From NCBI RefSeq assembly GCF_000189635.1, contig NW_002476365.1, positions 124,001-188,000 on the forward strand: a DNA stretch of 64,000 nucleotides. Direction: 5' to 3'. Shown here one piece after another: positions 2,965 to 39,093 of this stretch. Every line of letters begins with the position of its first letter. The stretch's first letter is position 1. Made by a program: the position numbers and the translations under genes. Origin of the DNA: Tetrahymena thermophila SB210. Its lineage: Eukaryota > Ciliophora > Oligohymenophorea > Hymenostomatida > Tetrahymenidae. The notes beneath the pieces were generated by a model. It worked only from the letters and a program-made list of their open reading frames with translations. It did no database searches and was not told the DNA's origin.

Positions 2965-4930
2965 ATAAATTCTGATTTGCTCTAAATAAAAAAGAGTAAA
3001 TTTTTTTAATTCATCGAACAGAGTAAACTGAATAGCAAATACAATCAATCAATTATAAATAAAAAAGACTTTGCATTCCAAATTTTTGTAAGTGGAAACA
3101 ATTTAATGTTATTTAGGAATGAGTAAAATAGTAGAACATACTTTTATAAAAATAATAATTACATGAGCAGATATAGCTTAAGCTAATATTACACAAATTT
3201 ATAAATATAATTCAACTAGAACTAATTTTGCAGTTCTGTACAAAAATTTTAATGTTAATAAATTTTTTATTCATTTATAAAAAATTATTTACTCTAAGAA
3301 TACATTGAAAATATTCAAGTGTAATGTGAAATATATTTAAATAATTGCAGTGTAAACTAAAATAAAAAGAAATTTCATAAAAATAAACAATAAATCTTGC
3401 ATTAATCAACCAGCAAAGGTATTACCAAAATCAAGGAAATATAATCTTAATTATGAATTATCAAGTTTTATTAAATGAAATCTACCTAAATAATAGAGAT
3501 GACTAAAAGGTGGATGAAGCTAATTCTCTCAATATCCAATATTCATAAATCAAATCAATCTAATCTTACTTTACTTATAATTAGATTGTGAATTAAGAAG
3601 AATGATCATTCTTATTACTTTAGCAGAACTATTAAGGTATTATAAATTTTAATATGCTTAAATTTGCAAAGTTACATTAAAGAATAAGTCAGAGTGCCAA
3701 TACGTAATAGTACCTTAACTTTTTTAATTATAATAAAGTCATAAATTGTAATTGAAGAGTTGTACTTTATATATCTTAAAAGGTTAGCACATATATCGAA
3801 TCATCATTCTTTATTTCTATTTACAGAAAATTAATTTTTGATAGAATAAAGGCAGAAAAGTTAAGCTGATTTCAATTATCTAATACGAAATATACATCTT
3901 CTTTATTAATAAAGAGTGATGAAATAGCTCTGTAAATCAATTAATTATATTATTTAAAAATAACCAACACATCTAATTATCAATTTTACCAGAATTGTGT
4001 TAGAATTATTTCTTAATATTAAGTATACTCTTGCTAATAAATTTTCTAAAGATCGATAACTTAAATTGAGTTAGAATGGCTTTTGAGAAATTAATAAAGT
4101 TAAAATCTCCTTATTCTTACACAAAAAATTTATATCTTTTGTAATTTGGATTGCTTAACTCTTATAGACAATAAGTAGGTAGTAGTTTATTTTATTTTTA
4201 CTAAATAATGCATTATCAAAGACATAGTCATTCCATCAATAATTTAAGGCAATTTGGATTAAAAGCCTTAAAACGTTGAGAAGAAATACTACAAAATTTT
4301 CCTTTAAACAATTTGAAAAAGTTCTTAATAACTCAATTCATCGAACTTAGAATGAATTTTGTCTTGATGTTTACCAATAAATTTTACTTTATCTTTCTTT
4401 AAAAATGAAATTTAATGATAGGGCTAGCTAGATAACTAGCTAGTTAAATAAATAAAAAGATAAAAAAACAATCAAGAATTAATTCTGATTTAAAATTGAC
4501 CTATATTTAATTATGAATTAATTTTTGTTTGTTTGTTTGTTTAAAAGCATATTTATAGAGGTCTAAATATAATTTGTTTGTAATGATTTACTAAAGACAT
4601 ACATGCACTGTTTGTATATATATATATCTCAACTTACTTATAGCATTATATTTATGTACCTCTTTTAAATATTTAAAAAAAAAGCATTTTTAATATAAAT
4701 CAGTATCTTTCTTAATTTATTCTTTGTCTTTAGACTTTAAAAGCTCAGTCAACAATTAATTTAAGATTGTAATCTAATAAATTTTAGAAAAATAATAAAT
4801 AAACAAAAACAAAACAAACAAATAATCTGTTTATTTCCTAAATTATAAATAAATAAACAAACAAATATAGGCTACTCTCTTCAGTCTTTACACTTCATAA
4901 TTAACTTTACAATAAGCTTATATCCCATTT

Positions 4931-7087
4931 ATGTCTACCATAATTAGAACTGATTCTTAACTGAATCCTTTAAACAAAGATCCCCATACAAACGAAAATG
5001 TTTAAACTGAAAATTAGTTTGTTGCTGAAGAAATCAAACCTGCTTCTATTTAACAGCAATCAGAATCATTTAAGGAAAGCGATACTCAAATTGAGAAAAC
5101 AGAAAAGCAACAACCAACCTAGCTAATGATCGATGATGTAATTGAAAAATTAAATACAAGAGGTATTTTCTAGTTTTGGATTCTCTTTACTTTCTGCATT
5201 CTTTATACCGTCCTATGTGCCGCAATGCTTTATCCTTCTTTTTATCTTATGGACCCTAGTTTTATTTGCCCAGGTCAAGGAGACGGATTCACAGAAGCAG
5301 ATACTGGGTGCGATGCTGGCTGTTATATTGACACCACTAGTGGAAGACGAACTTTAACCGACACTCTTAATTTATATTGCAATAATTAATAACTCCGTAT
5401 AATGAGTATTTCTATACTTTACTTCGGTTGTGCTATAGGAAATATAGTCATCGGAGCATATTCTGAATTAAAAGGACGTCGTTTAGGTATGATAGTAACA
5501 TGGGCTTTCTCAATTATTTCATTCATCGGTGTGATCACATCATACAGCATTACTTAATTGATGATATTTGAATTCGCCTTGGGTTTCTTTATCTAGCCTG
5601 CAAGTACATTGGTCTTTGTTTATATGAGTGAAGTATCTATTGGAAACTACCGTCAATACTTCTGTACTATTATCATGGTATTTTGGTCAGTTGGTGAATT
5701 GCTCTTACCAGCTGTAGCTTACTATGAATATAACTGGAGACTTGGATTTACTTACTACATGGTTATCCCAGCTGTTGTTGTAGTTATTTTACTTTATTTT
5801 TTCATGTATGAATCACCCTAATTTTTAGTCTCTCAACGTAGATTTGATGAAACTAAGCAAGTCTTACTTAGAATAGCCTCATGGAATAAAAGAACTGATT
5901 AGTATGCTATCATTGATAAATATGTTGAAGAGTAAAGATAATATGCAATTGAAGAAGAAAAAAAGAGCAGTTTCAAAGCTGATTAAATAACTTCCATTTA
6001 TTTCCACCAAGTCTTTTGTCTTCCAAAGTTGCTCAAAATTACTGCCGCAGCAAGTGGCATTCTTTTAGCTATTAATCTTATTTACTTTGGTTGCTAACTT
6101 TCCTTGAGTACCATCAGTAAAAATTTTTAATTTGTTTGACTAATCTTTATTTTTTAATTACTTCTTTACAACTTCTAGTAACTTACAAACGAGTTAATCA
6201 AAAAAATTTATAATATTCCTTATAGTACGATTTAATAATTAATAGATCAATGAAGGAATAAATCAATCTTACTAACTAACTATCTTTCTTTTTTTCTCAA
6301 ATACTTTCTTTTTTACAATTACAATTTGAACATTTTTTTGATAAAATCACAATCCCAAATATAAAAGAAATAAATAGTTAGTTCGTTAATAGTTTAGAAA
6401 TGCTTTTTAATTGTGCTTTAATAAAAAGCATATCATAAATAATTAATTGCATAAAAATAATTATTTTTATTAATTTATTCCTATTTATAAATTATTAGGT
6501 CCTAATCCTTATGCAAATTAAGTCTATTTGGGAATAGCAGAAGGTTCTACTTTATTATTTTCAAATTTAACCACTACAAGATGCAAAAGAAAACTTTGGT
6601 CTTTCATTTTCCATACTGCCACTTGTATTTTGTGTCTCTTCTTTTTATTTGTTGAAACTGATGATGGCAAGATTGCAGTAGCTTTCTTTGTGAGAATTGG
6701 AAATGTATTCGCTATGGCACTTGTTTAGATATATCTAAATGAATTGTAAGATTTTTTCTTTAATTGTTTCTTATATAATCTTTAATTATTTTTCTATCAA
6801 ATTAATCAAGATTCCCAACTCCTGCCAGAGCTGTATGCTAAGGTATAGTTTATTTCTTTGGTCTTGTTGGAAGTATCATCGCCCCCTACGTAATTGAATG
6901 GGCTGTTGATATTGGTATTAACTAAATAGCATGGCTTGGTATAGTCTCCTTCTTAGGGTCATTATGCTGCTTCTTCCTGAAGGAAACTTATCTCATGCCT
7001 TTAGATTAAGAATTAGAGGAATCTGATTTAAAGAGATTCAAAAAAATGAATGTCAAAAAAACAGCCACAGCTCCAACTGAATAATGA
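4931..7087 (+). CDS. MFS transporter, SLC22 organic ion transporter type
   Basis: Exons 4931..6116, 6499..6745 and 6811..7087 give 569 residues with intact phases (A|GT and TT|A). The protein is a 12-helix-type major facilitator. A hydrophilic N-terminus of ~75 residues precedes the first membrane helix, then a Cys-rich extracellular loop (FICPGQGDGF..., ending LYCNNQQ) as in SLC22 proteins. Family marks are ELKGRRLGM after helix 2-3, YMSEVSIGNYRQYF, the ESPQFLVSQRRFDE stretch (family pattern ESPRWLLxxGR), and LNELFPTPARAVCQG near helix 10-11. It presumably moves organic cations, anions or carnitine-like solutes across a membrane; the substrate cannot be told. Introns are 382 and 65 bp. The short C-tail is Lys-rich. 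Confidence in the family is high, in the substrate nil. Confidence 0.88.
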
Positions 7088-7551: not shown

Positions 7552-10500
7552 TCATTTTTTTTTAAAGCAATTTTAAATTATTTGTTTAGATGGTGATTTT
7601 TTAGAAACATCAGCTATTATTTGCTTTTATATTTTGAATTAAGAAAATTATTAAACTGGTTTTAAGGGTGGATTAAATTGATCATATGAATTAGCAGCAG
7701 TGTCATATGACAGCATATTCTAATCTAAATCTTAGCCTGAATGTATTTTGGTTTCGTATTCATCAAAAATTTACTCTGAGTTTCTATGAGATAAGTCTTC
7801 AAAAATTTTGAAGCTTTTGCTTTAAATTTCTTACTTCAAACTACTTTCTTAGGAACTACTAGTAAAAGGAGAAATCTAACTTATTTCAAATTATCTTTCA
7901 GTTTAAGACCCTCCAAGTTACGCTGGTTATTAACTAGTTTTTATTTTAAGGAATTAACTAAATTTATTAGGAAGAGGCATGAGACTTTTTTATGGTTAAA
8001 AATTATTTTAGAATAAATTTGATTAAGAATTTTAGTGGATTGAAAATGTTTTTATTTTTTTTTGATTGTTTTTAGGAGAGTTTTAATTGCTGTGAAATGT
8101 TTTTTAGGAGTTTTAGCGCTGAAATAAGCTTTTTCTATCAATAATTATATTATTTATCTGTTCTGATGCTGTTTTAAAATCGTTTTAATGCAAATTTAGA
8201 ATTTCATCACTATTTCTACTTGAAAGAAAACCACTTAAGAGTTTATTTGTTGAATTTTATTCTTTTTTAGAAAATTCTAATTTGGACAAAGAATTTTCTC
8301 TGCATAAATTAATTTATTAACTGATGTTAGAGTTTGGTTATTCATAATTATTAAAATATTGCTGTAATGAATCATTTTTAAAAATTTATTTTTTTATGTT
8401 TATTTGATTTAAAAAAGAGTTTTTTAACTAAGGACACTTTTTTTTCATGCTATCTAAGAATTTTATCTTTTGTCTGATGTCTAGATTTTATAATCTTAAG
8501 GGAAAGACTTGATTAGTTTGCTTTTTGTTAGTATCGTTACTATTAGAAGGTAATTGTAATAAAAATTTAACTTTTTTGCTATTTGGAGATTAATCTTCGA
8601 TGCTATTTAGTTAATTTTCATTATCTTTATCCTGTAATTAATTATATTTAGAACAAATTTCTGTAAAATTATTGGAATTATTATCATTTTACTCTAATTA
8701 TTTAAAGACTTCCATTTCTGATTAGGTTTGCTAGTAATTTTTATTTTAACTTTATTCATTTTAGATTTTTTTTAAATTTATTATTGAATGAGTGTTTTTA
8801 TGGTTTTATACTTTTCTGGGAGATAAATTTAGAGATTTTATTATCGAAGGACTTTATGGGAAATAATTTTCATCTTGGTTTGAGATATTTCTTTAAGTTT
8901 ACGATCCAAACAAAATATTGCTATATTTTTTATTTTCTATAAGTTGATTTTAGCTTAAATAATCTGATATTAGAAAATCAGATTATTTCTACATTTAGTG
9001 TTATTTATTATTTTAAGCTGCTTTTACCTTTATCTCATAAATATCCTAGTTAACTCCTTATTCGAATGAGGATTTATGGTTTGGAGAGGAATTTAATGAT
9101 GCATTTCTTGAAATTTACTGTGAGTTAGCAATATTTTATTTGTTTATAGTTCCTCGTTTTTCTTTAAAATCAAAATAGTTAGATGAATCAAAATTTACTT
9201 AATTCAAATCTCTTGTATTGCTAAATTATTTATTTAAATTAAGTTATGATTGAGAATTTGAAAGGGATTTTTCACTTAATTTACTTATATTATACATACT
9301 CCTTTACCTTTAATTCTATCTAATGACAAAGTCAATTTTTTTCAAGCTTGAAGGAGGTTTCTCTCCTTCCTCTGTCTCTAAATGGTGCAAAGACTGAGGA
9401 TGTTATGATTCTATAGCATTTAAATTATTTGAGGTAAAAATCAGTGTTGATCTTTGTCTAATTATTGGATTTTACTCTGCTGAAGCATGGTAACTCTTAC
9501 TGTGTTATGTATTACGATTGTTATCTTAAGACTCCAAACAGCTATCTTACTAAATTTAAATCTATGACTAAACTCTTTTATGAGACTATATCTATTTATT
9601 TATTATTGGTTATATAGCAGCAGTGTTATATACATTATCAAATTTCATCTTGAATGAGTTAAATTCTGATACCAAATCCTTCATTGAAAAAGGTGAAAGG
9701 TCATTATGAGTTTCTTAAAAAAATTTATTAGATTCAGCTTTATTATTTATTTTATTGTTATTTTCTTGCATTAAATTTTCTACATTTGATGATGTGAATT
9801 TCTTGGTCTATTTTTATTAATGACTTTCAGAAATAAAGTAATCATTTTCAGCTTTGATTTTTTAAAGGATTGTTTCTTCTTACTTTTATACTGCTTCAGT
9901 ATAAAGTTGCAGATACCTTTTGTGCCTTTGATTTCCATGAGCTATCAGAGATTTCAATAAATTTTAGTTTTGATATTAACAGAGAATCTTTCGAGGAATC
10001 TTGAAAATAACTGTGTCAGTTTCTAGAGTTACAATAGAGAATTCTTTTTAAAGTTATATCATTTTATCTTAGAAAGCTTAAGATGGTGAAACTTGACCTA
10101 CGTAACTGAGCATGCTTTCAAAATCCTCTTTGAACCAGTTTTCATGTCCAAAAAACTCTCCCTCACTAAGCTAAGCGAGTCTTAAACTGAGTTTACTTAC
10201 TCTCGACATGGTATTTTTCTACAAAGATGAATCTATATTTTTAATTTGACTTTTGGAGTGATTGGAAGTCATTTTTTTTTGGATTTCTATAGAGCCTTTG
10301 TAAAGCAAATAAAGAAACTCCTCTTCTTAATCAGGATGAGAGAATATGGGATTTTCAAGAATTTCTTATGCTCTTTTTCTTTCAGTTGAGCAATGCTCTA
10401 TTTTTTAACTAGAACTATTATTATTGGAGCTTCTTTTAGATGAATCATTAGTACTTTCTAACTCTTTTATAATTTTTTAATTTTTCTCTAAGTGCTCTTC

Positions 10501-11523
10501 CTTGAAAAAGAATGCAATACTGCTTAAAATGTCTTAGTTTAAATCTTTCTAAAAATTATTTAATAAAGCTCTTCTAACAAAAGTCCTTTTCTCTAGCTCT
10601 TGCTAAAAGACTTTAAGATAATTTTTCTTGCTTATCTTACCCAAAATTATAAATTTAGAAATTTAAAAATGATTAGAAATTGTGTGGAGAGTTTATAATT
10701 AATTATCCAAATTCAAGTTTTATGCTTACTAATGTTGATCCAAAATATCTTAATTTTCCTATGACTGAATTATAATTTCTTTTACTGGTTGAATTTAGTA
10801 ATTTGCTTCTAATTTTTTAGTTGATTCTAATCTTAAAGTGTTACTCTCTTCTTAATCATCTGATACTATATTAATTTCTTGATTATTAACTTGTTTGTTG
10901 GTTTATCTTAATGGGATCCCGTTGTGTGCAATTAAAGTAGCTGTTCTTTTTTAGGACTAGTCAGAAAGAATTGACTCTCCAAAACTATCATATTCATACA
11001 ATTGAGTTATCTTCTTAAATCCACATATGGTTCCACTTTACCTGAAATATTTTGAAAAGTATTTATTTCTAAGTAATTCTTCATCTTCTTAGTTTCTTAA
11101 ACACTTAAGTATGCTTTTACCTTGATTTATTTGGTTTATAATTTACTAGCTACTTTACTATGAATGCTAGTTGCCATGTTTTGAGTCCTTATATTCATTG
11201 TTTAAATATTCTAATTTTTATCTCCATTTTACTTCAAGCTCTATATCTTAAGAAGACTTAGGAATAAAAACTGATATGTTTCCTTTGAGGATAAAGTATA
11301 AATATTAGCTTTGTTCACCTTTGTGGAAAACTGCGCTATATTCTGGAATTTCTTCGTATTCTACATATTAAGCCAAATCAAATAGACGATCTTATAGCTC
11401 TTACTTTGAGCAAACACCTTTTAGGTAAGGGATATGAGATAAAAAATCAGCAACAATTGCTCTGTCTTTCATATCACTTACATTAGATTATCTTTATAGT
11501 ATTTTGATGCAATTTTCAATCAT
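7552..11523 (-). CDS. Cyclic-nucleotide-binding domain protein A
   Basis: A single uninterrupted frame of 1323 residues with scores of in-frame TAA/TAG Gln codons. It starts at the first ATG after an upstream TGA. The N-terminal CNB fold is recognisable: a strand pair VFHKGEQSQYLYFILKGN then ISVFIPK (to residue 89), and the phosphate-binding cassette YEYDSFGESILS...KRTAT, with Gly182, Glu183 and Arg193 in the positions that hold the cyclic phosphate and ribose. About 85 mostly charged residues (90-173) are inserted between these halves. A second, weaker CNB-like unit follows (residues ~380-560; EFFGHENW at ~456-463). The C-terminal ~750 residues are Ser/Gln/Asn-rich and low in complexity. No kinase or channel domain is visible, so it is probably a cAMP/cGMP-responsive scaffold or regulator. 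It is a paralog of the gene at 22827-27237. Confidence 0.85.
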
Positions 11524-13526: not shown

Positions 13527-16500
13527 TCAAATCGATACATGCAAATTCTTGTTGCTATTGGTCAATTGACTTGATTAGCTAATAGGAAGAAGCTTCCATT
13601 TAACGATTAGATGTTGTAACTCGATAGAATCTAAAGGATTACTTAAAAAATCATAGAAGCCTATGCTTTCCAAATTCTTTTTAGTCTTAATAGTAAAATT
13701 ACCTATAGCAAATACAATACTTTATTAACAATAATCATTAAAAAAAGACTCTAAATCTTTTTAAAAAAAATCTTGTTTCTAGAATTCGTCAGTACATACA
13801 AAGATACAAACAAACTGTCTTTCACCACATGTTTTACAATCATTGTTTTTCTTTTCTTCACAAAATGTAATAGCTTCTTTAATACTGCAGCACTTTTAAG
13901 GCATAAAATTAAAATTTGTTAAGAGCATTTCTATCGTTTCTAAGTTCCTATAAACCTTATCTATTATTAAAACGTTTTTGCATTAACATTTTAAAAATTT
14001 GTAGTGCGAATGTATTCCTGAAGGTTGCTTCTAGAAAGTCATAGTTCTTGTTTAGTTCTTTTAAATTTAATCTAATAAAAAAAAATAAATTAATTATTTA
14101 GTTAGAATAATTTTATTAGTTTGTTATCATAATCTTTCGAATTTTAAACTTTATGTTATTTATTAAAGCTCATAAAATTCGATGATAAGTTTTTATATTT
14201 AAATTAAATTTTATATTAATTTTTTATAAACGTAAGATAGTTATTATTTTCAAAGCATAAATTTATCCATTTTACATCAATAAAATGTTTTAAATAAATT
14301 TAAATTTATCAAAATATTAATTTTTATCTAAACAAATCTAATTTATTTATGAAATTAATAATCAAATTATTATTCAAGTATAAACAAAAAATTTTTAAAT
14401 CCCTTTAACTAAATGTTAAATTATTTTTAAAATAAAAGTGGGTACATTTAATAATAATCTATCAATATTTCATTCAATTTATTTTTTAGAAATTTTTTAT
14501 TATTATTAACAATTGTTTATTGATTCCTTAAAAAATGAAAGTAAATCGATTTTTATTTAAAACTGATAACTTTAATGGAGTTTTTTAATATAATTTTGTA
14601 ATTTAGTGAATTTAAACTGGTGATTTATTTCAAAATTAAATGAATAAAAACATTAAACAGGTTCTCTGTTCATCTAATAATTATTGAAAATATTTTATTT
14701 AATTTTTTTTTTGAGTATTTCTTCATTTAATAATTTTATTTTGACGATTATAATCAAATTAATAAAAAATTAAATACTTTTTCATTGATTTTTCTATTTA
14801 CAAATATTTTGAGTAATTTTATTAAAAAATTATCTTACAAAACGAATTATATTTTTATTTAATCAATTTATATTTATGATAATAACCAAAAAAAGGCAAA
14901 AATCATTTTTTTACAAAATTAGTAATAAAAATATCGATAAATGATTGCCTGTAAAAGTATGAAAGGATTTTTAAAGGTTTTACTCATTCGTTTTCAAAGA
15001 ATTAAATTACTCATTAAAATTTTATTAAAATTTATTTTTAAAGAAATCATCAATCCAATCCATCCATCCATCCATCATTATAAATTTTATTTCAATAATG
15101 ATGAAACTTTATTTGAGTTTTGCTAAATTAATTAAAGAATGTAAAAATTTATTACCAGAAATATCTTCTGAAACATCTAATAAATCATTTCCTGTCTTTG
15201 TTTAAACTTGATTTCCCTTATTGGAATTCAGAGCCATCACTCCATTTTAAGATGATAAACCATTTTAAATGATTGAAGATTAAATTTGTTGATTTGTGTT
15301 GCTTTTTTATATATTATTATGCTACTGATTGATCTGCTCATCAACTTATGAAGTAATAGTAGGAGGTTAAGATAACTAAAAAAGAGAAGCATTTTTATTT
15401 TAAAAGATGCTTTTGCTATTATTTTACTCTTGATACATTAGAAAATTATTGGCATAAGAATAATTAATCAATGAATCCTATATTTTTTCTGACTTTTTAT
15501 TTTCGATAATTTTAATGTCAAAATAAAATTAACTTCCTTTATGAGGAACTGAAGTAAATTTAATGCCACTAGCATCATTACTTTCTAAAGGTGGATCATT
15601 TTCTTTTGTTAAAGTATATTAATATTCTGGATTGTAAAGTTTTTTAGCAATTATATTGCAAATGAACAAATTAAAACCAAAAGAAGATATTTATTTAAAA
15701 TCTTAATATCCTATCCCTATTCCAGAGTTTAATAGTTTATTTAGTTTTTGCTAAATACTTTAGTCCATACCTTCTCCTGTGTCTTCTACCTAAAACCTAA
15801 TTATATTTTTTAATTAGTTTCCTTTTTTTGTAGGAGGGTATATTCTAAATTTTAAATATCCAGTTTGGGTATGTTTGTGTGCATTTGAAAGTAAAGTAAT
15901 AATTATTTGTATCAGTCTTCTACTATCCGTAGGAATAACGAAGGGAGTATCTTAATCATAATCTACTATAAATTTAATATTCCTATCGCTTGTTTATTTA
16001 AACATCATTATACAGTGCTCTACTACTTCGGTAATTTTAGTTTCTGCTATGTCAAGCACGAATCTTTCACCTACTAAATCATTAAAGTCTCTCAAATTAT
16101 GAAGAATATATTTTATTATCCTACAAGATAATTAAATTGGCTTTATGAATTAATCTTTAATTTTCTCTTCAATCCTTTAACTTTTAATTCCTGCCTAAGA
16201 AGTTGCTATAATTTTACTCAAGCTTTAAGTTAAATCATTATTAAAGCACCTAAACAGGTTTTTTAGAATTTAATAGAATTATGATTTATTAACTATTTTT
16301 TCTCTCTAATGAATTTCTTCAAACACTAGCAAAAAATTGTATGGAGCTTCTCTTCTTTCATGTTCATTTTCTTTAAAATTTAAAGTTATTTAAAATCTTT
16401 TGAAAACTATTGTAATTTAAAAGTACCTTTTTAGTTATTTTTAATTGATGTGATATTAATTGATTGTGATTCCGCCATCTCCTCCATGTTGAATTTAAAT

Positions 16501-19500
16501 GTTTAGGGATATATTTTTATTTAGTATTTCTTTATTTCTGATAAGTCCAAGAGCTAGTCTTCTGCCGTGAACGAAGCTATTACAATAGGTTTGTTAGTGT
16601 AGTGCTTCTTGAAATACTCCCAATTCATTGAAATTTTTACCAAAAATTCTTTTAGTGAAATCCTATTTTAAAAGCAAAAAATAAATTTATAAAATATTTC
16701 CTCATAGCAAATAAATAACAAATATAAATAAATATTTGAAGAAATTAAAATAAAAAAATTATTAAAAATTTATTTTGAAAAACAAACTATTGCAAATTTT
16801 AATTAATTGAGAAAGAAGGGAATAAAAAATATTTTTTATTAATAAATTTAAAAGTTAAAAAATTGAATTGAAAAGTGCTTTTTGAACTATTTTTTTTAAT
16901 TTTTAAAAGCAAAATTTTTTATCAATTAGAAAATGAAAGCATCTAAAGAAACTAAATTATAAAAGTAGTAGCGATTATTAATTCATATTAAAAAAATGAG
17001 ATTACATAATGAAAATATCTAAAAATCAAATTAATTAGCTTTGAAATTATTTTAAAATATTGCTTAAAATGTTAAAAATTTGATGAAAAATAAATAATTC
17101 TTACAAAATGTTTTTAGACTTTAGGCCTATTTTGTAGGAATATGCTATATTGTAGTTTGTAGTAGCTGCAGAGTTAGACACTTTGTTGCAGCTCATATAT
17201 GAGTTTCTTGCAAATATTAGCTCCTTAAATGTAGAGGGACTATAGAGGAGTGGTGCTGGATTTTCTTGACTTACTTAGAGTACTTTAGAGTTATTAGGAG
17301 GATATTAATTAAAATTTTCTAGGTTATTATTGTTTTTTTTTGTAAAAGATTGAATGGTTGAGTCTTATATTAAACCAGGTAAAGGTTTTGTTTAACTTTA
17401 TTTTTTAAAATTTTCCCACAAATTCATAGTGTCTATGTCAACTCTTTCTATTATAATATTTTGTAAAAATTAATCAAAGAGCTTAATGAGGTTGCTTTAT
17501 TTAAAACTTTATTAGGATTTTTAGCGAGGAATAGTGGTAAAATCTGAAGGAGAGGCATGCCCTAATTCTGCTGGTGCAGTTTCTGCAAATATGTTAATTT
17601 TTTCTTTCTAAGCAAAAAAGGTTGCAATTTAAGGAATTATTTACTTTGAAACATACATGGTTGATGCTGTTTCATCAAGTAGAGCATATTGGACTGAATC
17701 CTTTAACATATTATCAGCTTCTTATTTATTAGAAGTTTCAAACTATGTATTATTTTATAGTTAAGGCTCCTTCTGCTGTATACTCCAATTTTAATTTTGG
17801 GTTTATTTTACTGAAAAATTAATTTTATTATCTATATTGTTTATTATGATTTCGTTTCCGCTTTTAGTTTTTTTCAAGTTGTTATTGTTACTATTGTTGT
17901 TCTTGTCATTTGACTTTCCCATGCAGAATTACTCCGAGAAGCAGCTATCAATTATAATCCTTTAAGAAAAATAACTTTTTTTTGCTTGTAGGTATGTATC
18001 ATTTTAGGCATTGTATATATTTATCTTGTTGCAGATCATCAAGTGAAATGGGAATTATTTGAATTTAAATTAAATGATAAGAAGAATAAATCCAAGAAGA
18101 CCCCATTAAATAAATTAGATATATAATTAATTTTATTGGTAATCCAATGATAGAATAGAAGCTAAAGCAAATATTATCATATCTAGTAATAGGAGCTTAT
18201 CTTTAATTCGAAAAATTTTAAAGTTTGGTAATACTTATTTTAAAATGAGCTAAATAAAGAATAGTTCTACTACAACTTCTAAAGCAGAATTTTCGATATC
18301 AAACTTTAAGAAATTATTTGAAAATACGGCGCATCTAAATATTTAAGTTGCTACAAAAAAAAATATCTTCTTTGTGTGATCTTACAAAACGATTTATAGA
18401 CTCAATGTTTTTAAGTATATTAAAATATTAATTAGAGAAATGACTTCAATTACTAAACAAATTAAAGCAAAGATTATAAAAAGCTAATAGTTATCATAAT
18501 TGAATCGTCTTACAATCTACAAGGCTTCAACTATCATACCTGCTACCTGAATAAGCATCACTTTTAAGATTTCCTTTTGGATTACTTCATTTTAGTTTTT
18601 AAAAAGTTTGTGAAGGTGCATGGACATATCTTCTGTTCTGTTAGTGGAAGCATGGTTAGAGTGAAAATATTTATCTTCGTTCTCTTTGAGTTTATGTTGA
18701 TTGCTTTACTTAGATAATTAATTGCAAATAATTTAAGCATCTAAGCTTGCAATTTTTCCATTTGAAGAATTTTCAAAGTGCTGAGTCTACTGAGCCTCAC
18801 TCTTGGGTGATTTTAAATCTGATTTACTGTTAATATCTATTTCCTAAATCATTAAACCTTTTTAGGTATTTTTATTATTATTGTCATTACTATTATTATA
18901 ACCACTCGTTTGTTTTTTAGAGGACTCAACCAAATAATTTTCATTAGCTCCAAAATTATTACCTAAAAAATAAAAGTTACCCTGGCCGTTATATTGCATG
19001 TTTTATTTATTTTATATCTAAAAAATATCTTGTTAAAGTTTTGTTAGATTATTATTGAATTTTTATTGACTTGAAATTTATCCATTTTTATTATTTTCTA
19101 TACTATTTTTAATTTCATGCCAAGAATTACTTTGCTATTAATCTTATTTAACTATTTATTTATTGACCATATCTTAAGCACCATAAAATTTCTTATTAGA
19201 GGGTTACAAATTAAATTATGAATTCTGAAAATTTTAATTTTATAGCATGATATTTAAATCTGTAATGTCTATTTTTGTCTGAAGAAGATTCCTTTCTTTT
19301 CCGTTAGCAATTATTTCTCGCGAATTATGCTCAATGTCACTTTTCTAATTTAATTCATTAACAGTTTAGACATTATAAATAGAATTTTGAAATGAATGGT
19401 TATTGCTAATAAAAGCTTAACTCTATTTATTTATTAAGTAGTTTATTTCTTCATTTTAAGGACTTTAAATTAAGCTATGTTTGCTATTTGGGATAGGAAA

Positions 19501-19788
19501 AAGGTTTAACAGATTGTTGTTTTATACTTCTTCTTTTTGCGCTCCATTTTAATATATCGTTTATAGCATTTATGGAGTATTTTATTGATTTTTAATTATA
19601 TCATTAATTTGAGCTATCTACAAATCGTTATTGTTTGGAATTTAATCGCAAGGGCTAAAAGTTATACTTTTTTATGGCCTAACTTCAACTATGCTTTTTT
19701 AGCTTTTTTTGCTACCGTTGCTCATTAAAGTCTCATCAACAATTGCTTGCTTTAAATTATTTTATTGGCCTTTATTATTTAAAGCCAT
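13527..19788 (-). CDS. Membrane hybrid histidine kinase with degenerate phosphorelay sites
   Basis: Exons 19788..17105, 16648..15156 and 14071..13527 give 1573 residues with consistent phases. Residues 1-410 are Asn/Gln-rich. About 415-605 contains several hydrophobic helices, so it is an integral membrane protein. A linker leads to a dimerisation helix (residues ~1020-1095), then a GHKL ATPase domain: N-box LLSNAHKHT with Asn1150, G1 box VEDTGEGMD (Asp1184-Gly1188), and a later GFNLFICNIIAKKL stretch. The C-terminus (~1424-1545) is a receiver domain starting KNVLIIDK. The helix reads CFNNDLTQSL where active kinases have F-x-H-[DE]-L, so the phospho-His is Asn1032. The receiver has Cys1485 near the Asp site (an Asp occurs two residues later) and LSNPL instead of the KP turn. 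It is probably a pseudo-kinase sensor. Exon 2's acceptor (16648) is chosen by phase; 16662 is an alternative that would break the frame. Confidence 0.82.
14072..15155 (-). other. Long intron of the histidine kinase gene
   Basis: The proposed 1084-bp intron joins ...EDIS to the receiver exon (G|AT = Asp). It starts GTAATAAA and ends TTTATTAG in the gene's sense. The frame is open for another ~100 codons past the donor, so a read-through form without the receiver would end near 14860. A CATC-type microsatellite (about 15057-15075) lies inside. If this intron is wrong, the receiver would be a separate small gene with no good start codon. Confidence 0.55.
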
Positions 19789-35886: not shown

Positions 35887-38800
35887 ATGCTAGAAGATCC
35901 ATGTCAAAAAGTTATTCGCGTTATTAAAGAGAAGCAACATAACAGAGACTACACTTATGAAGAAAGAGTGGCAATACTTGACTTTCTAGTAAAGAGTAAA
36001 TTTGGAGAACATTATATGGGAAAGATCAGTGCCTTGCATAGGTTAGCCTATCAAATGTAATACGAAGTTTATGAAAAGGGCAAGACAATTTACACTAATA
36101 TGGATCAAATTGATAAGCATTATATCATTTTAAATGGGAGAGTAGCTATTTTAGAGAGCAAAAATATAGAATAAATGAACTACTAAAGATAGAGAGAATA
36201 ATAATTTGACTATGATCGCACACTTTCCTAGCTATAAGTAAATTAATAAGCTCGATAGCTAAAGAAGAGATGCGAACTTTAATAATATGACAGTTTTGGA
36301 TTTAATTTACAATTAGCTTAACAAAATACATAGCAATATTCCCAAACTTCTGACCATATAGTCTTAGCTATGGAAAATACTCATATTTTAATATTAAAGG
36401 CAAAAATAATTCAAGAGAATAATGCAGAAAATTTATAGCTTAATTGTAAATTTGTTGGAAAGTAATTGTAAGTAGAATACACCTTGCTTAACGATATTAT
36501 TTGTGAGCAGTGCTTTAAAAAGAAAGGAATGTATATTTGCTAAGAAAGTTAAAATCCTCGTTTCATTTATTGCGTTTTATATGGTTCTGTTCTTTACCAA
36601 GATTAATCACCTGCTGGGACTAATAGAAACAGAGTTGTTTTAGGTGAGGGAGCTATTATAGGTCAATCTATCAAAGGTGAAAAGCAAAGTAATTCTAATA
36701 AAGCTCAAAATTAAATTTCATAAAAAGCTTTATCTCGATAAAATAGCAGATATAATGGTATTTAGTTAGATATTTAATCCGATGAAAAAATAAATGAAAA
36801 GGAGGAGTAAGTATAATCTTCAATACACTCTTCATCTGATTTTACTGTTATATTAATGATCGATAAAGAAAAGCTTGGCTAAAAATTGATTGAATACAGG
36901 AGGTAGTAGGATTATTCAATAAATAATAGCAATAAGCAGTAATTTCACCAAAGTTCACAAAGGAGTATTTAGAAACCTAAGGCAGAGAGCAGTTAAGTTA
37001 ATGATTTTAATGCAAATATTTAGTAATCAAGAAGACAATAAAGACCAGTTTAAGAAATGAATGTCACGAAAGGAAGATTGGTGTTTTAAAAAAAGAGTAG
37101 GAGTTAAAGCTATTCTATTTTGTGCAAATTGATATAAAAAGAAGAGAGATCTAATTCTTACAGCAGAAATAAATTAAATTTTATAGAACTAAATCCTAAT
37201 TACAAAAAAGAGTATTTAGCAATTGAGTAACCAGAAAATAAAAATAGAATATAAACATTAATGGAATAGTCATTTTATCAAAATAACGATGTCTAAAATT
37301 CTATGCAAACTAAAAACCTATAATTGTAAGCAAACGAGAACAATAGTAATAGGAATGACTTTGAAGATGTGGTTAAGAGACTTGCAGAAAAAAGTGTTTT
37401 CCCTTAATATTATCAATAGGAAAAGAAATATAATAAATTGCTAATGAAAAACCTGAAAGATAGGGAATAGATAGCTAGACTTATAATCGAGAGCAAAAAG
37501 CCTACTTACCTCCCAAATTACTTTAGTAACCCTGAGAATTTTGTAAACAAAGATCAATTAATGAATCAGTTTCACACAAAATATTTGCATCATAGTATTA
37601 AAGAGATTTAAAATAACCATAAATAAAAAAGAAGCTACACTCACTAAATCCAAAGTTAGAATTCTACTGAATATTTAGAAAATTTCAACATAAATAGTCT
37701 ATAAACTGAAGAAGAGATAGATAAATTTATCCAAAAAATCAATAGACAGCTTATAATATCAGAGACTCATCAAAACCAAATACCTAACAAGACTTCATAA
37801 AGCATATCAAATAAAAATAATAATAACAATAACAATAATAATAGTGTTAGTAGTCATAACTAATAAATAATTAATAAATAATACACGCTTGGTAATTTAA
37901 TCAGCGAAGAAAATATGGATTTAAATCAAGAGCAAGATAAACTAAATCACTTAACTGTAAATTCATAACAATTATTCTACCCATATAGAGTTCAAGAAAT
38001 GTTAGATTAGTTTATATCTCTCAAAAACTAAGAAAGTGGATAAAAGAATATAGAATGTATTGAAATAAGAAAATCTAGCATTCCATAAATAAAAAAATAA
38101 GGATAGAGCTAATAAGAATAGTATTTAAAAGAAGAGGTATTTCATAATTAGAATTAAAATATGCAAAATAATTGCAATATATACTAAGATATTGCTTTTG
38201 AAAGTAATTAGGAGCTTTAAGAGATGGATGTAAATTACCCATCTAACGACTCTTTTCAGAATGACTAGTATTTAAATTAATTAGAAATTCGAGAATAGGA
38301 TCAGAATTTAAACATGGATACAGATTAAACCCAAAATTATGAAATTATGAATTATTTTACTTCTAATTAAGTATCTAGGTTAGGAAGCAGAGGAAATATA
38401 GGGATTAATTAGGTAGATAACGAAAAAGGAGTTCTTAGATCACAAAGTGTTCATAATATATTAAGAAAATAATTAGATGTTCAATAATAAAAAGTGTTTG
38501 CTTTAAATTAAATGTATCCTAATATTAGGTAAAGGAGCTTATCAAGAAATAAAATTTTAAACAAGAATAATTAAAATCTTACAAAATCGTAGAATGAGTC
38601 AATAAATAAAATATTAACAAAAACTGAATTTCGGTTAAAAATACAATCAGAAAAATAATTAAATAAAATAGTTTCAGAAGAATGTAGAGGTAGCACAATT
38701 TTCAAACCAGAGAAAAACTTTGTATCTCTATTATCAACTTACATATAAAATACTTAATAAAATAGTTAAAAGACGAGTAGAAGAACATCGAATTTAAAAG

Positions 38801-39093
38801 CTAGGCCATCAACATCAAATTGCGACTAAAATTAATTTAACTTAACGAGCAAATAAATAATGCTATCTAAATTTAATAATAACCTAAACACCATAAATAA
38901 TCAATCCTTGAGTAATTCACAAAAAATTAAATAAGATTTAAAATAGTCACAATCTGAAATTAATAAAACCCCAAATAGAACTATATTATTTAGCAGCAGC
39001 GACAGAAGATATTCAAAATTAAATTTGCCATAACACAAAATAAATTATCAATCAGGAGAAAATTAAGATTAAAAATAAAAATAAAAGTAATGA
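35887..39093 (+). CDS. Degenerate cyclic-nucleotide-binding domain protein C
   Basis: A single intronless frame of 1068 residues ending in a Gln/Lys-rich tail. Residues ~55-95 contain the first strands of a CNB fold (YEVYEKGKTIYTNMD, HYIILNGRVAILES). The part where the phosphate-binding cassette should lie reads YDSFGFNLQLAQ...SDHIVLAMENTHILILK: the Gly-Glu and Arg that contact cyclic nucleotide are missing. A second unit has FIYCVLYGSVLYQD and VVLGEGAIIGQS, again without the Arg. The fold is therefore probably kept while nucleotide binding is lost. The remaining ~750 residues are Asn/Gln/Ser-rich, with a poly-Asn run near 640. It is related in layout to CNB proteins A and B but more distant. 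Confidence 0.75.

Follow-up and report, generated by a model that had tools for sequence, protein, structure and literature searches.

The gene described here lies on the minus strand, between positions 19788 and 13527, of a 64,000-nucleotide window of the Tetrahymena thermophila SB210 genome (C172:124001-188000 in our locus names), and encodes what is probably a membrane-anchored pseudo-hybrid histidine kinase serving as a conformational or heterodimer partner. Both sequence comparison and structural models recover the layout of a hybrid kinase: a DHp (dimerization and histidine phosphotransfer) hairpin, a CA (catalytic and ATP-binding) domain with N-box and G1 box, and a receiver fold. The protein lacks the phospho-His and two of the three glycines of the G2 box, along with the second acid, the Asp, the Ser/Thr and the Lys of the receiver. 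With the fold predicted to be kept and the catalytic residues lost, the protein has the make-up of a pseudo-histidine kinase. Without the His and the Asp, no two-component phosphotransfer can pass through a protein, and neither autophosphorylation on histidine nor a role in a phosphorelay would be expected of this one. An initial annotation of the window had stated that every phosphorelay residue is lost; the residues of phosphoryl chemistry are indeed gone from both halves, but the first acid of the receiver remains.

Domain identity and predicted folds

The HATPase_c domain (PF02518) was detected in exon 3 with an E-value of 4.4e-10 (40.4 bits, cut-off 26.4) and is the sole Pfam domain above its cut-off; neither HisKA nor Response_reg matched the protein in Pfam, the former even at E≤10. 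A kinase hidden Markov model (HMM) specific to this genome matches the DHp and CA regions of exon 3 (E 9.5e-17 in a small database; model positions 18–152 of 164), and the corresponding receiver HMM matches exon 4 over its full length (E 6e-6). AlphaFold2 (AF2) models were computed from alignments of 39 bacterial kinases for the kinase core and 35 prokaryotic receivers for the receiver. The core model (predicted local distance difference test, pLDDT, 82.5; predicted template modelling score, pTM, 0.79) matches histidine-kinase cores in a structure search. The receiver model (pLDDT 83.1, pTM 0.78) is a (beta-alpha)5 fold, and its Foldseek matches include the Sln1 and GacS D1 receivers. Both the DHp-CA and the receiver folds are thus predicted to be intact. 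The residues that bear on activity, numbered on the spliced product, are listed below.

16237..16239, minus strand: Asn1018, the likeliest residue at the phospho-His position, with Arg1014, Asn1011 and Gln1007 as alternatives, none of them His (HMM, spacing, alignments, profile)
15883..15885, minus strand: N-box Asn1136 (LLSNAHKHT), kept together with the N-box Lys (family HMM, alignments)
15769..15783, minus strand: G1 box DTGEG, residues 1170–1174, kept (family HMM, alignments)
15667..15684, minus strand: G2 site S1203-F-G1205-F-N1207-L (residues 1203–1208) where GxGxGL would be expected, with only one of the three Gly left (family HMM, bacterial alignment)
13827..13988, minus strand: retained cysteine signature of the receiver, C1407-x-C1409 (CQC) before beta1 and C1457-x-x-C1460 (CKTC) before beta3 (co-occurrence across the receivers of the genome)
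13956..13961, minus strand: acidic pair DD changed to D1416-K1417, first acid kept and second lost (alignments)
13794..13796, minus strand: Cys1471 in place of the phospho-Asp, at the end of strand beta3 (alignments, AF2)
13701..13703, minus strand: Gly1502 at the conserved Ser/Thr (alignments)
13638..13640, minus strand: Asn1523 replacing the conserved Lys, so that KP reads NP (alignments)

The residues named in the initial annotation are all present, with its numbering 14 higher than ours: Asn1032 is N1018, Asn1150 is N1136, the DTGEG starting at 1184 starts at D1170, and Cys1485 is C1471. An alignment placing a real His and a real Asp in the active positions was sought; no His was found in any register, and the Asp column holds Cys1471.

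Phospho-His site

Inspection of the whole interval between H994 and H1064 revealed no histidine, so the phospho-His is gone in any register. The loss claimed earlier therefore stands, while the exact substitute is less certain than had been stated. In favor of Asn1018, the family HMM alignment begins at this residue, and its distance of 52 residues to the next helix motif is the commonest spacing among the paralogs (10 of 35 measured; range 47–68). Pairwise MAFFT alignment with locus L041 places Arg1014 opposite the His instead, and the bacterial alignment places Asn1011 there. A gapless profile of 41 H-boxes gives near ties, all negative (Q1007, -17.3 bits; N1018, -17.5 bits; R1014, -18.7 bits); because unrelated sites in the protein score equally well or better (best -4.2 bits, residue 319), this profile cannot by itself locate the H-box. 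Asn1018 is likely, though not certainly, the substitute, and serves as our working choice in an uncertain register. H994 was rejected as the active His, since it lies 76 residues from the next helix motif, outside the range of the 35 paralogs.

The phosphatase residue of histidine kinases is a Thr or Asn four positions after the His. In the Asn1018 register, itself uncertain, this position is Gln (Q1022), which argues against the protein working purely as a phosphatase on the receiver of a partner. That role seems improbable to us, although the acidic residue following the H position would be kept (D1019) and the His, according to the relevant part of a recent survey, contributes to HisKA phosphatase activity without being essential for it (PMC12632262).

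ATP pocket

All five N-box and G1 residues scored are kept, compared with 10 of 25 other conserved columns. This preferential retention favors a retained nucleotide pocket over random decay. The ATP lid and the GHKL motifs had been described as intact; this holds for the N-box and G1, but the G2 hinge reads SxGxN instead of GxGxG. A displaced GIGIG sequence (residues 1190–1194) was considered as an alternative G2 box and rejected, as G2 falls at SFGFNL in the family HMM and in the bacterial alignment alike, with the next helix matching; GIGIG may nevertheless contribute to the lid. Nucleotide binding by this protein is accordingly a hypothesis for which the N-box and G1 speak and against which G2 speaks.

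The stricter proposal, in line with the ATP-binding switch suggested at the outset, is that ATP binding without phosphotransfer is itself the signal; it draws on the preferential conservation of the N-box Asn and Lys and of the DxGxG of G1. We consider it rather unlikely, because two of the three glycines at the lid hinge are lost and because the His-less loci of this genome are not pocket-keeping as a rule: L027 also lacks the N-box Asn, and L052 also lacks G1.

Receiver domain

Four of the residues that define an active receiver are replaced. The exchanges of Asp for Cys and of Lys for Asn had been recognized before, the latter as a KP turn reading LSNPL, which is confirmed and holds N1523; that list was incomplete, as the second acid is lost as well, turning DD into DK, and a Gly takes the place of the Ser/Thr. 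D1473 lies two residues past Cys1471, beyond strand beta3. Across the genome, an Asp occupies this column in 28 of the 29 receivers in which the column is in view, the window's Cys being the other residue, in a survey that leans toward intact receivers since a D..MP pattern was used to choose the seeds of the receiver HMM. This survey and the cysteine survey that follows exclude seven duplicate loci and one out-of-frame row of L018.

Cysteines are also found at two other places in the receiver. Of 29 receivers in which both places are in view, 15 (the window's included) have a CxC just ahead of beta1 together with a Cys pair just ahead of beta3, 12 have neither, and there is one apparent exception each way (Fisher p 3e-6, with relatedness ignored). 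The exceptions are L011, which has its CxC in another piece, and L013, which is cut short. Besides the window gene, the subclass with both motifs comprises L009, L015, L021, L038, L040, L041, L047, L051, L175 and others. Because beta1 and beta3 are neighboring strands in the receiver fold, the CxC and the Cys pair may form a metal or disulfide site. A bolder scheme would have ciliates repeatedly making phosphorelay-free membrane sensors from hybrid histidine kinases, with the receiver here turned into a cysteine-based output: a four-Cys site (CxC plus CxxC, possibly metal or redox) together with the Cys at the phospho-Asp position, so that signals would run from the membrane through a nucleotide-stabilized DHp-CA core to a thiol/metal pseudo-receiver. 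We regard this scheme as highly speculative.

Comparison with other kinase loci

All locus comparisons were made within this one genome (about 101 Mb in 445 contigs), whose telomerase RNA (L094) agrees with that of T. thermophila. Kinase loci were assembled from searches with HisKA, HATPase_c and the window protein, and the best candidates were scored, giving at least 85 loci. The His is kept in 79 of the 85 listed, lost in four, and unassigned in two (L055 and L057). It is present in all 75 loci matched by Pfam HisKA (76 matches, two of them in one gene; L093 was assigned by visual reading) and in four of the ten without such a match (L016, L018, L054 and L056). The His-less loci are the window gene, L027 (His to Arg), L053 (His to Leu) and L052 (His to Asp, by eye).

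Loss of the His goes together with loss of the G2 glycines. G2 could be read in 42 distinct His-bearing loci; all 42 conserve the second and third Gly, and 38 conserve the first, whereas the second and/or third Gly is lost in all four His-less loci. The probability of this split by chance is 1 in 163,185 if the loci are assumed to be independent, which they are not. The window gene is thus not a unique case, as at least three more loci of the genome have lost the His together with G2 Gly (one of them read by eye).

A tree of 46 of 49 loci (three short ones dropped), built after seven duplicate loci had been set aside, groups the window gene with L027 (support 0.73), near L056 and L016 (0.64 and 0.43); L052 lies at that end of the tree as well. 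L053 is placed beside the canonical L047, away from the window gene. Because L053 branches apart from the window gene and L027, the tree suggests that His and G2 Gly were lost at least twice. The receivers differ in how much they have lost. L027 (G000:C209:4078), the weakly supported sister, shares with the window gene a missing His, a lost G2 and a changed acidic pair (EQ), but its receiver retains Asp and Lys; the window's keeps the first acid only. The receiver found with L053 (G000:C368:2425-2940) is L175 (C368:653-1066), which is intact, with acidic pair, Asp, Thr and Lys retained.

In L016, L054, L056 and L086 the H-box reads SHE[FL]GT compared with SHELRT elsewhere, the Arg being lost and the His kept. 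L016 and L056, which lie near the window gene in the tree, may be intermediates.

Gene structure

The gene was modeled in the ciliate code (code 6) from six-frame translation, inspection of the DNA, and a codon-usage scan trained on ten open reading frames (ORFs) from the window. Four exons (19788-17105, 16662-16427, 16370-15156 and 14071-13527, in order on the minus strand) are separated by two introns of 442 and 56 nucleotides (nt) and a putative third of 1084 nt, all bounded by GT-AG and with a GC content of 14–15%.

17105..19788, minus strand: exon 1, with the start Met, an N/Q-rich N-terminus of ~400 residues, about five hydrophobic helices and a long N/Q-rich linker (codon scan, best frame outside the membrane region; splice model; hydropathy)
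18073..18585, minus strand: membrane region within exon 1, five transmembrane-like segments, residues 402–572 (Kyte-Doolittle scan, fixed threshold)
16663..17104, minus strand: intron 1, 442 nt, GTAAGA...ATAG, GC 14% (splice model)
16427..16662, minus strand: exon 2, linker preceding the DHp domain (codon scan frame 0, moderate)
16371..16426, minus strand: intron 2, 56 nt, GTACTT...AAAG (length explains the frame change)
15156..16370, minus strand: exon 3, DHp helices, HATPase_c (CA) domain, then linker (PF02518, genome HMMs, AF2)
14072..15155, minus strand: putative intron 3, 1084 nt, GTAATA...TTTTTTTATTAG, GC 15% (compatible phases, a one-in-three chance; typical kinase-receiver gap)
13527..14071, minus strand: exon 4, receiver domain and stop TGA (genome receiver HMM, AF2)

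The spliced product contains 1559 residues, with no internal stop in the 1559 codons and the sole stop at the end; another frame of exon 1 holds up to 28 TGA. The clean frame of 1573 codons reported initially therefore survives as a spliced frame over four exons and not as one open run. The codon signal stands out clearly along most of exon 1 and of exon 3, is moderate for exon 2 and weak for exon 4, and turns negative across the membrane region. Near 16.4 kb the coding signal moves from frame 0 to frame 2; the length of the 56-nt GT-AG intron explains this, and a frameshift there was rejected. A search of the genome with exon 1 gave the self-match alone at E≤0.01, and the exon has no Pfam match at E≤1.

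The kinase and receiver very probably belong to one hybrid gene, as judged from their arrangement. A same-strand receiver follows within 6 kb downstream of 50 of 54 kinase matches, with gaps of 371–2627 bp (median 1420). The window's gap of 1439 bp is typical; it is understated by ~150–270 bp, since the window's own match reaches further into the CA domain, and is still inside the range when corrected. Positions in this survey came from several searches, and some receiver fragments were left out. The CxC motif starts many of the hybrid receivers of the genome, the window's included, and the splice sites and phases of the putative intron 3 fit. The alternative is that the His-less kinase ends before ~14.9 kb and that an orphan pseudo-receiver forms a gene of its own at 13.5–14.07 kb, the 1084-nt AT-rich stretch being intergenic. 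This stretch has 9–22% GC per 100 bases and a length that we take to be long for an intron of this genome; furthermore, the coding signal continues past the proposed donor to ~15.0 kb before fading, and an ATG at 14042 could begin a separate ORF. Set against the arrangement seen in the other loci, two genes appear very doubtful.

Proposed role of the protein

A membrane-anchored pseudo-kinase of this kind would signal by shape rather than by phosphate. Its DHp helices may homodimerize, or heterodimerize with one of the cell's ~80 His-bearing kinases and alter the state of that partner; docking of a partner's receivers would be an alternative to heterodimerization. Nucleotide in the partly preserved pocket may tune the conformation.

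Several points weigh against this assignment. Strong divergence of the H-box leaves its register uncertain, the gapless family profile being negative throughout the DHp region, and 15 of the 25 conserved columns outside the pocket motifs are changed. The loss of G2 may abolish nucleotide binding, and DivL of Caulobacter, a known pseudo-histidine kinase, itself binds trinitrophenyl-ATP (TNP-ATP) weakly, at 57 uM, in the portion of the study cited here (PMC4211667). The codon-usage scan gives a weak signal for exon 4 and a negative one across the membrane region, and the join between exons 3 and 4 is predicted from sequence. Finally, the prokaryotic alignments push the AF2 models toward the expected folds; because these inputs carry the folds, the models serve as supporting evidence only.

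The high divergence, the changed columns and an H-box beyond recognition would also suit relaxed decay, in which a redundant hybrid kinase is losing its function while the frame is still open by chance. Decay is unlikely, in our view, given the absence of internal stops over the spliced codons where other frames hold many TGA, the coding-like codon use along most of exon 1 and of exon 3 (moderate for exon 2, weak for exon 4), the full retention of N-box and G1, the retained cysteine signature of the receiver, and the parallel loss of His and G2 in L053, elsewhere in the tree. The earlier preference for a pseudo-kinase over random decay is supported by the residue losses, the clean spliced frame, the predicted folds and the 5/5 versus 10/25 conservation.

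Relation to known pseudo-histidine kinases

Plants and a few bacteria are known to have pseudo-histidine kinases. The kind is already known; a hybrid in which both halves are dead, alongside sister loci with fewer losses, is an unusual variant of it. The DivL core senses a phosphorylated regulator; DivL carries PAS domains and has Tyr as its H-position residue, and the relevant sections of that report (PMC4211667) describe no receiver, whereas the window protein has membrane helices and a dead receiver. No Tyr was found in the candidate H-site registers examined here, and no orthology with DivL is claimed. RetS of Pseudomonas, which according to the abstracted findings blocks GacS autophosphorylation (PMC4866733), would be a precedent for a heterodimer or conformational partner. 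ChrS of Corynebacterium is reported, in the passages drawn on here, as a dead kinase that matters and heterodimerizes with a paralog (PMC9491836), and by analogy offers a precedent for the proposed role; its defect is a laboratory-evolved frameshift in the CA domain, whereas the window gene shows residue replacements in a clean frame. The plant ethylene receptors of subfamily II are likewise eukaryotic, membrane-anchored, diverged relatives of histidine kinases. Signaling to CTR1 is described as unlikely to be a phosphorelay in the part of the literature consulted (PMC3485614). Points of difference may be the ethylene-binding domain of the ethylene receptors and the Ser/Thr kinase activity of subfamily II.

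Loss of single active residues is uncommon in bacteria: as summarized by Bourret et al. 2025, the His is missing in 722 of 76,471 HisKA domains (0.9%) and the Asp in 2.0% of receivers (PMC12632262). In the figures drawn from that survey the domains are counted separately, whereas the window protein is dead in both halves, and in a ciliate. Histidine kinases of ciliates appear as an expanded 'atypical' family in the section of the Ichthyophthirius genome paper that treats them (PMC3341644), and no report of such a protein in ciliates was found among the literature matches listed.

With both halves dead and about 80 His-bearing paralogs in the same tractable ciliate, such a hybrid would offer a natural system for studying what a histidine kinase does when no phosphate is transferred. 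His and G2 Gly appear to have been lost together in at least two lineages of the genome, which makes it testable which parts persist after catalysis is lost. Should the gene merely be decaying, comparison with its sister loci would still show the order in which the parts go.

Neighboring genes

Two other large proteins are encoded in the window at 7552-11523 (minus strand) and 35887-39093 (plus strand), with cyclic-nucleotide-binding matches of 27.4 and 26.8 bits, under the Pfam cut-off of 27.5. A sugar transporter-like protein of the major facilitator superfamily type is encoded at 4583-6139 (plus strand; Sugar_tr, E 3e-21).

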